Assembly: GCF_000015665.1 (NCBI RefSeq)
Contig: NC_008817.1
Location: forward strand, 1,240,001-1,304,000
Source of the DNA: Prochlorococcus marinus str. MIT 9515
GTDB lineage: Bacteria; Cyanobacteriota; Cyanobacteriia; PCC-6307; Cyanobiaceae
Reading direction: 5' to 3'
Length of the DNA: 64,000 bases
Part shown: in pieces, positions 50,719-52,852 of the stretch
Layout of the letters: every line of letters starts with the position of its first letter
How positions within the stretch are numbered: the stretch's first letter is position 1
Notes under the pieces: generated by a model
Seen by the model: only the letters and a program-made list of their open reading frames with translations
Told to the model about the DNA's origin: nothing
The model's database searches: none
Made by a program: the position numbers and the translations under genes

Positions 50719-51291
50719 GTGAAAGAAGTTTTAATTAGTTTTACGATTTTTGTATTTTGCATTTCATTAACTCTTTTTAGTCAATTTAATTCTCCTCAAG
50801 TTGTTAATGCATCTGAATCAAAAACTGAAATCGTAAATAAAATACCTACTACAAAATCATCTAATGTTTCGAATACCAACATATTCGAACTAGACCCATC
50901 TGACCCAAACCCAATACTTTTTGCCATGGTTGAAGAAACACAAGAAGACAGCAACTCTAGAACTACAGAAAGTGGATTGATTATTTTAGATATGGTTAAA
51001 GGAGAGGGAGATGAAGCTAACTCAGGACAAACAGTTACTGTTAATTATACTGGAATTCTAGAGGATGGAACCCAATTTGATACCAGTATTGGTAGGGCGC
51101 CATTCAGTTTCCCATTAGGTGCTGGAAGAGTAATTAAGGGTTGGGATGAAGGAGTAGCTGGAATGAAAGTAGGAGGGAAAAGAAAATTAACAATACCTCC
51201 TGAATTAGGTTACGGAACAAGAGGAGCTGGAAATGTAATTCCTGCAAATGCAACTTTAATTTTTGAAGTTGAATTATTAAAAGTCAATTAA
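50719..51291 (+). CDS. Exported FKBP-type peptidyl-prolyl isomerase (GTG start)
   Basis: The 190-residue protein has an N-terminal hydrophobic segment ([16 protein letters not shown]) with a signal or anchor role, a disordered acidic stretch, then a complete FKBP domain from about residue 95. The domain shows [39 protein letters not shown] and [15 protein letters not shown] and ends [10 protein letters not shown]. Pocket residues (Y, F, D, W) are in place. GTG at 50719 gives the signal segment. Location is likely periplasm or thylakoid lumen. Confidence 0.9.
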
Positions 51292-51365: not shown

Positions 51366-51839
51366 ATGTTAACTAAATTATTAAATTCTTTTTTAAATAA
51401 AAATTCTAAATTGGAAGTTCATGCTCATTGTGACGGGCCATGTGGCGTTTATGATCCCGCTTCTGCAAGAGTTGCTGCAGAAGCAGTATTGGCAATGACC
51501 AAGAAGCTTCTTGCGCTTACTCCTCCTTCAAGTACTGACTCGGGAGATTGGGCTGCTTACAGTAATACCTTTTCCAGGTTTGTCGCAGTTAAAGAAGAAC
51601 AGGCTAAAGAAACTAAAAAAGAAATTTTAATTTTGTGGACAGATTATTTCAAGCCAGTTCACTTAGAAACTTATCCAGAACTATATGAGACAATTTGGAA
51701 AGCAGCAAAATTATGTAGTGCTTGCAAAGTAAATATCGATTTAACTCAAGCAGAAGAGTTAATGAATTATGTAGAAAAAATACATACTATTTTTTGGGAA
51801 TCTAAAGGAAGAAGTGATGCTTTCGTAAAAGCAAGCTAG
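51366..51839 (+). CDS. sodN: Nickel superoxide dismutase precursor
   Basis: The 157-residue precursor has a 20-residue leader ending EVHA, then the nickel hook HCDGPCGVYDPA starting at His21, with Cys22 and Cys26 as nickel ligands after cleavage. Helical regions follow (AAEAVLAMTKKLLALTPP, WTDYFKPVHLETYPELYETIWKAAKLCSACK). NiSOD disposes of superoxide without iron or manganese, suiting an iron-poor ocean cyanobacterium. The leader must be removed by the SodX protease encoded just downstream. Its stop codon (TAG, 51837-51839) is in the same frame as the sodX sequence that follows. Confidence 0.97.
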   Translation: MLTKLLNSFLNKNSKLEVHAHCDGPCGVYDPASARVAAEAVLAMTKKLLALTPPSSTDSGDWAAYSNTFSRFVAVKEEQAKETKKEILILWTDYFKPVHLETYPELYETIWKAAKLCSACKVNIDLTQAEELMNYVEKIHTIFWESKGRSDAFVKAS

Positions 51840-51845
51840 TTTATC

Positions 51846-52187
51846 ATTTTAAAAAACTTTTTAGATTTAATTGCATTTTTTTTCGGATTAAGAAAAACAG
51901 CAATTGTATGCGGTAATTCTATGCTTCCTACTTTAAAAGAAAGTGATATAGTTTTTTTTAAAAAATATATTAAAAACAAATCACTCTTAAAAGTGGGTCA
52001 AATAGTTATTTTCTATCATCCTCTTAAAAACATAAAGCTGATTAAAAGGATAGGTAAAATTAGTAAAAATAGTATCGAAGTTTTTGGGGATAATATTGAA
52101 TATAGTGATGACAGCAATAAATTTGGTTCTATTAGCAATGAAAAAATTATTGGAATAGTTACTTCTAGTATTAAAAAAATCTTTTAG
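51846..52187 (+). CDS. sodX: NiSOD maturation protease SodX (start uncertain, no ATG/GTG/TTG upstream of the catalytic Ser)
   Basis: The S26 signal-peptidase-like protein must include the catalytic block CGNSMLPTL, whose Ser codon is 51918-51920. An ATG at 51921 lies inside that block and would delete the serine. Upstream in frame there is no ATG, GTG or TTG before the sodN TAG; only ATC (51843) and ATT (51846, 51870, 51903). I give the ATT at 51846, yielding a product of about 113 residues with a hydrophobic head (LDLIAFFFGL) and the catalytic lysine region KLIKRIG. ATT/ATC initiation, reinitiation from the sodN stop or TAG readthrough are all open. The 3' end overlaps the nickel permease gene by 4 bases. 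Confidence 0.75.
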   Translation: MLKNFLDLIAFFFGLRKTAIVCGNSMLPTLKESDIVFFKKYIKNKSLLKVGQIVIFYHPLKNIKLIKRIGKISKNSIEVFGDNIEYSDDSNKFGSISNEKIIGIVTSSIKKIF

Positions 52188-52852
52188 GTCAAAAAAAGAG
52201 CAGTACTCTTTTGCACCCAAAATAAGCCCATAGAAAAAGATAAGCCCCCAGCAAAAGCTATTAACCTTCTAAGAAATTTTTGCCCTGTATTTAAAGTTGT
52301 TAAAGATATTAGACCAGTAAATAAAATCATACTTGCTAAAGAACCAATCAAATACGATATCAAATAAGCAGACGCACTAATAAGCGGTAAAGCTAATGCT
52401 GGAAGTACTGCAAGAATATGAGAACCGCCTGCTAAACCATGAAGGAGACCTAAACCTGTCAATGCATGTGAATGTTTATTATCCTTTTTTTTTGCTTCAC
52501 TATGAAAATGAAGATGATGATGAGCTACGCCATTATGTTGATGAGAATGAGAGTGAATATTTAAAGGTAAAGAATTTTTTATGGCAAAGACTCCAACAAT
52601 AAGAAGTGAGATTCCAACAAAAAATTCAGCAAAGTTAGAAAATTTACTTAAAGGGGTAATATCCTTTATGAAAACTGCTAGAACAGCTAAAAATATCACT
52701 CCTGAAGAATGTCCTAAACCCCATGAGATACTATTTTTTGCTGCAATTTTTGGACTTGTAATTGCTGATGGTGCCATGGCAATAAGATGATCAGCACCAC
52801 TTACTACATGAACAAATCCAGCAATGATTCCAGTTACTATTACAACCTGCAT
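52184..52852 (-). CDS. Nickel/cobalt permease-like protein with His-rich loop
   Basis: The 222-residue membrane protein has about six helices. Early motifs HVVSGADHLIAM and SWGLGHSSGVI carry the H-x4-D/H signature of NiCoT and HupE/UreJ-like nickel transporters. A central loop near residues 98-131 is very rich in histidine (SHSHQHNG, HHHLHFHS, KHSHAL) and probably binds metal. GLLHGLAGGSHILAVLP follows. Its place next to sodN-sodX argues that it imports nickel for NiSOD; such genes are known beside sodN in marine cyanobacteria. Confidence 0.85.
   Translation of the reverse strand: MQVVIVTGIIAGFVHVVSGADHLIAMAPSAITSPKIAAKNSISWGLGHSSGVIFLAVLAVFIKDITPLSKFSNFAEFFVGISLLIVGVFAIKNSLPLNIHSHSHQHNGVAHHHLHFHSEAKKKDNKHSHALTGLGLLHGLAGGSHILAVLPALALPLISASAYLISYLIGSLASMILFTGLISLTTLNTGQKFLRRLIAFAGGLSFSMGLFWVQKSTALFLT

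Follow-up and report, generated by a model that had tools for sequence, protein, structure and literature searches.

A nickel superoxide dismutase maturation protease gene that lacks a canonical start codon in Prochlorococcus and probably begins at AUU just behind sodN

AUU is the start codon of infC and pcnB in Escherichia coli, both of which are expressed at a low level, and to our knowledge AUU starts have rarely been reported in bacteria. Like sodX as read below, these are bacterial genes with an AUU start; however, infC and pcnB are genes of translation and RNA metabolism, infC being subject to feedback by its own product, whereas sodX encodes a protease of metalloenzyme maturation, and the sodX start lies directly after another gene and lacks a Shine-Dalgarno sequence. 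A second comparison is offered by translationally coupled neighboring genes, for which PMC12548453 gives an NTG start overlapping a TGA stop as the commonest spacing, with spacings of -1 and +3 nt also occurring. Such pairs resemble sodN and sodX in that both genes share a strand and the second starts within a few nucleotides of the stop of the first, but in the sodN-sodX pair the start would be AUU and the spacer differs by single bases between relatives. The action of SodX on the propeptide of nickel superoxide dismutase (NiSOD) comes from work cited in PMC8346466. In cyanobacteria, sodN, sodX, and sodT are described as neighbors wherever they are present (PMC4284471), and they have been counted among the core genes of Prochlorococcus (PMC10119275); for Streptomyces the start codons of sodN and sodF and the intergenic region before sodX are treated (PMC3919588). 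No paper on the start codon of picocyanobacterial sodX or on AUU starts in Prochlorococcus was found among open-licence PMC articles, a partial view of the literature that is no proof of absence.

We analyzed a stretch of 64,000 nucleotides from Prochlorococcus marinus str. MIT 9515 (contig NC_008817.1, positions 1,240,001 to 1,304,000), hereafter the window. The nickel superoxide dismutase precursor gene sodN (157 aa) occupies 51366..51839 on the forward strand; its product scored 243.1 bits with TIGR02753 (cut-off 90) and matched PF09055, and the gene ends in TAG (51837-51839). Behind this stop, and in the same frame as sodN, the sequence stays open from 51840 to a TAG at 52185-52187, a run of 115 codons that the initial annotation had placed and counted correctly, and its statement that no ATG, GTG, or TTG occurs in the codons from 51840 to 51920 was confirmed. 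The first in-frame ATG (51921..51923, forward strand) directly follows the TCT codon (51918..51920) for the serine of a G-N-S-M motif, and a product begun there would have 88 aa and would lack this serine, the first strand, and the N-terminal helix. Because the mechanical ORF begins at this internal ATG, the locus is indeed the annotation trap that had been suspected. The proposed start is ATT (51846..51848, codon 3 of the open frame), 6 nt behind the sodN TAG on the same strand, which would give a sodX gene of 113 aa (51846..52187, forward strand). The spacer consists of TTT ATC (51840..51845), its counterpart in relatives differing by single bases, and its ATC (51843..51845, codon 2) is an alternative start.

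The protein encoded here was assigned to the SodX family by its profile score, the position of its gene next to sodN, and its Ser/Lys residues. It scored 76.8 bits with TIGR02754, the NiSOD maturation protease model, and passes the curated cut-off of 63.25; it also cleared the threshold of the signal peptidase I model TIGR02227 (58.5 vs. 47 bits), with a score lower than that for TIGR02754. The gene adjoins sodN, and in the whole genome (1,704,176 bases in one contig) the sodX locus was the sole match to the SodX protein at an E value of 0.001. An AlphaFold model of the chain read from 51846 had a mean pLDDT of 89.5; residues 2-12 form a helix and residues 17-20 a strand that comes just ahead of Ser25. 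All six Foldseek matches with E values up to 0.001 were signal peptidases or their homologs. Ser25 aligned with the G-x-S-M serine of S. aureus SpsB, in a weak stretch with an i-Evalue of 1.9; chain 4wvg in the same match list has Ala at this position. Across the aligned SodX proteins, the G-x-S-M motif and the lysine of L-I-K-R (codon 52044..52046, forward strand) did not vary (43 of 43), and the invariant positions include G23, S25, M26, P59, and K67. We take the lysine to be the general base, by analogy with S26 peptidases. The SpsB alignment and the invariance of the serine bear out the view that the ATG at 51921, inside the GNSM block, would cost the protein its active residue. SodX has the fold and the G-x-S-M and K residues of the S26 signal peptidases (SpsB, 4wvh; SEC11A, 7p2p) but is much shorter, has a higher score with TIGR02754, and adjoins sodN. 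The product is predicted to be the S26-type Ser/Lys protease that matures NiSOD, with propeptide cleavage being its putative role here.

A match to sodX was obtained in 217 of 266 same-genus genomes, the window's own included, and the sodN-sodX junction was read in 133 same-genus genomes, again counting its own. One locus with a disrupted frame (L303, genome G016) was set aside, leaving 132; aligned with its relatives, its sodX shows a gap of 5 nt in the N-terminal region that breaks the frame and is either genuine or a fault of the assembly. None of the 132 genomes has a canonical start from the upstream in-frame stop to codon 10, the upstream limit being the edge of the read sequence rather than an in-frame stop in 3 of these rows. 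A canonical codon anywhere before the serine is found in 11 of the 132, scattered within codons 10-27. In a single sequence the lack of a canonical start is not rare, since 1817 of 4515 stretches (40%) of 27 stop-free codons in the window also lack one, but its retention before codon 10 in 132 of 132 genomes, across a stretch that is under coding constraint, is not chance. A sequencing error as the cause of the missing start is very unlikely because independent genomes agree.

Of the 132 genomes, 130 carry ATT at codon 2 or codon 3, and the other two have ATC (L311) or ATA (L317) instead. Codon 2 itself is variously ATT, GTT, TCT, AGA, AAA, AAG, or TAT in these relatives, and the named locus L284 has AAT at codon 2 followed by ATT at codon 3. 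In a same-genus alignment of 97 rows, every row has ATT or ATC at codon 3 and 46 rows have GTT at codon 2, for which reason AUU at 51846 is preferred as the likely start and AUC at 51843 is kept as the second choice. Four more distant genomes (L309, L310, L313, and L316) have the Ile codon at codon 2 only. Among 33 genomes picked by hand for diversity, 31 had ATT in the pair formed by codons 2 and 3 and all 33 had some Ile codon there, the Ile codon sliding between the two positions (for example, ATT ACC, ATT AAC, AAG ATT, and AGA ATT); other adjacent codon pairs (24 in all) contained ATT in at most 22 of the 33, and the best nonoverlapping pair in 21. A search pattern for the commonest form, narrow enough to miss the window's own genome, matched 136 of 266 genomes when codon 3 was set to ATT and none of the 266 when it was set to ATG. 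Codon bias was considered as proof of the start but is not decisive, as the Ile codon 11 is likewise ATT (95 of 97 rows), and ATT makes up 53% of the Ile codons in the long ORFs of the window. The richness in ATT at codon 3 is no more biased than that at codon 11, and selection for the specific codon is not proven by this alignment.

The sequence ahead of the serine was examined for coding constraint with two hand-picked diverse groups, 8 vs. 14 rows of the 97-row alignment. Across codons 2-25 pN/pS was 0.33 in the sodX frame vs. 1.27 and 0.84 in the shifted frames; for codons 3-9 alone, within the first group, it was near 1 on few changes, and short sub-ranges scatter more. Judged by this substitution pattern, sodX is a real, constrained gene upstream of the ATG at 51921.

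Beyond the genus, we relied on named loci that represent the best 80 of 582 relatives, in 71 of which sodX was found by a motif filter that dropped L222, L226, L227, L231, L232, L238, L257, L258, and L267. A quick tree was made from the window and 70 named loci (L265, which is short, was left out), with the window's labels (start "none" despite its ATC ATT, frame 0) set by hand and with candidate starts sought between the upstream stop, going no further than 75 nt into sodN, and a point 18 codons before the Met. On this tree of loci from the best 80 of 582 relatives, none of the 32 rows in the window's clade (the window and 31 named loci) has a canonical candidate, vs. 29 of 39 rows outside it. 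The relation between the sodN and sodX frames changed at least 12 times on the tree, 3 of these inside the clade, as counted on a topology in which 31 of 68 inner branches were drawn open and long branches meet. In NATL-like genomes a GTG or ATG overlaps the end of sodN (20 of 20 inspected by eye, L100-L119, g56, together with L244 and L247-L256); in these genomes sodX starts some 23 nt ahead of the sodN stop, and an AAAGG precedes the start by a few nucleotides. In several Synechococcus-like genomes (L040, L045, L061, g5/g34; L262 and L266) a CTG in the sodX frame overlaps the TGA of sodN, and the spacer is of a length that preserves the frame; others have GTG or ATG. Three Calothrix/Rivularia loci have an ATG start, and L032 (genome G334) has ATG ATG at the sodX start. 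Other cyanobacterial SodX proteins of TIGR02754, such as that of L032, share family, neighbor, and catalytic residues with the window's, but the ATG ATG of L032 contrasts with a canonical start in 0 of 132 same-genus genomes. Several low-light lineages are without any canonical sodX start. In the low-light locus L070 (G356) the region between the two genes includes an A7 run, an in-frame TAA follows closely on the sodN stop, and the first canonical start is an internal TTG, with ATC and ATT available. As read from these loci, the sodX starts of picocyanobacteria outside the genus are mixed. Eitinger is said to have done experimental work on MIT9313 in 2004, a strain with an ATG sodX start if L032 is MIT9313.

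From the sodN stop to codon 2 the spacer measures -1, 3, 4, 5, 6, and 8 nt in 1, 8, 20, 89, 8, and 6 of the 132 genomes, so that sodX lies in frame 0, 1, and 2 of sodN in 16, 20, and 96 of them; the spacer is not read in a fixed frame. Readthrough of the sodN TAG, advanced by the initial annotation as a source of a self-processing SodN-SodX fusion, draws on the fact that in the window the two frames agree and only the TAG stands between them. The common frame looks like a chance result of spacer length, given that frame 0 is confined to 16 of 132 genomes, and the sodN stop varies among TAA (107), TAG (22), and TGA (3), so the TAG whose conservation was to be checked is not conserved; moreover, in three genomes (L002, L006, and L163) an in-frame TAA stands directly before ATT ATT as a second stop, and we regard the fusion as exceedingly improbable. 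Programmed ribosomal frameshifting at the end of sodN would also lead into the sodX frame, and sodX outside the clade is often in the +1 frame of sodN (30 of 40 named loci), while NATL-like genomes show, by eye, coding-type conservation up to the sodN stop. These same genomes, however, have an overlapping GTG or ATG instead, all three frames occur within the genus, and, with the sodX frame blocked by a stop 0-5 codons ahead of codon 2 in 126 of the 132, no single shift can serve; such frameshifting is therefore very improbable. The variable spacer, the TAA before ATT ATT, and the AAT ATT of L284 place the beginning of coding at codon 2 or 3 in same-genus genomes, which rules out readthrough, a start within sodN, and any fixed frameshift as the mechanism used by the genus.

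It could also be supposed that SodX starts at the ATG at 51921 and is no active protease, NiSOD being matured by another enzyme. No canonical start comes earlier than this ATG, and the mechanical ORF starts with it in this genome and with the equivalent ATG in L020; yet such a protein would forgo a serine that, like the lysine, is invariant in 43 of 43 sequences, as well as codons 2-25, which are under purifying constraint, and the helix at residues 2-12 and strand at residues 17-20, which are confidently modeled parts of the fold. We give this reading almost no credence. A less remote, although still unlikely, alternative is that initiation is indifferent to the codon and that a ribosome leaving sodN simply restarts at the next near-cognate codon (AUU, AUC, AUA, GUU, or CUG). 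The Ile codon does slide and vary within the genus, and some other picocyanobacteria, which lack a canonical codon, show a CTG overlapping TGA or another near-cognate, but an Ile codon at position 2 or 3 in 33 of 33 genomes of the diverse subset suggests that codon identity matters. A TTG in another frame combined with slippage on the window's T8 run was rejected since HLII-like rows, inspected by eye, lack the TTG. Among viral contigs, 20 pattern matches were obtained, none of them a relative.

We consider it probable that sodX has a non-AUG start, most likely the AUU at 51846, and that ribosomes coming directly from the end of sodN initiate there. In the 20 nt ahead of codon 3 a Shine-Dalgarno-like 4-mer (AGGA, GGAG, GAGG, AAGG, or AGGT) occurs in only 3 of 132 genomes, and the window has none; because the start lies within a few nucleotides of the sodN stop and lacks a Shine-Dalgarno sequence, termination-reinitiation would be the simplest supply of ribosomes. 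Ribosomes would terminate on sodN and then reinitiate at an AUU 3-6 nt past the stop, with fMet-tRNA presumably placed on this near-cognate codon. The suggestion in the initial annotation of an ATC or ATT start has held up insofar as these are the only plausible codons, and reinitiation agrees with the coupling to sodN; the readthrough that it listed beside them fell away. The weak start may hold the catalytic protease at a low level compared with SodN, its substrate, a dosage benefit that we infer. IF3 is reported to inhibit initiation at noncanonical codons and reinitiation without a Shine-Dalgarno sequence (PMC2268962); as IF3 acts against such starts, SodX expression would have to be low, and a low output of SodX fits the reported inhibition. 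The infC gene of the same genome (L221 1455) appears to begin with ATG, not AUU, and thus gives no AUU precedent in this genome. More tentatively, and with somewhat less than even confidence, we suggest that the genus-wide AUU start may be a fixed brake on translation, read by ribosomes as they leave sodN, such that codon identity and IF3 would set the ratio of SodX to its substrate, and that the picocyanobacterial start may have moved repeatedly among AUU, CUG, GUG, and AUG without loss of the gene.

A conserved gene that lacks a canonical start in every same-genus genome read is unusual, and gene finders limited to ATG, GTG, and TTG must either cut sodX behind the catalytic serine or miss it. 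A published survey (PMC8346466) lists ten sodN-bearing cyanobacteria without sodX, including four picocyanobacteria without any other SOD (a later sentence has three NiSOD-only strains), and suggests incomplete sequencing for the missing sodX. For these strains, a missing canonical start is another possible cause of the reported absence. The sodN-sodX pair also provides a simple natural system for codon choice by reinitiating bacterial ribosomes.

The junction RNA had no unusual fold (z-score -0.54) and no match in Rfam, and there was no terminator-like site at the junction and 6 promoter-like sites vs. 4.7 expected. A short GCTTT...AAAGC-type inverted repeat lies at the end of sodN (51819-51832 of the window), and a simple pattern for it matches 106 of the 132 same-genus genomes. 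In L020 an extra A near the end of sodN shifts the stop, and the protein ends in VKS. On the reverse strand a convergent ORF (52184-52852) overlaps the sodX stop and likely encodes the nickel transporter SodT, a name that appears in PMC4284471. Upstream of sodN, the forward-strand gene at 50719-51291 encodes what we take to be an FKBP-type peptidyl-prolyl isomerase-like protein, and a similar ORF lies upstream of sodN in L020 and L032.
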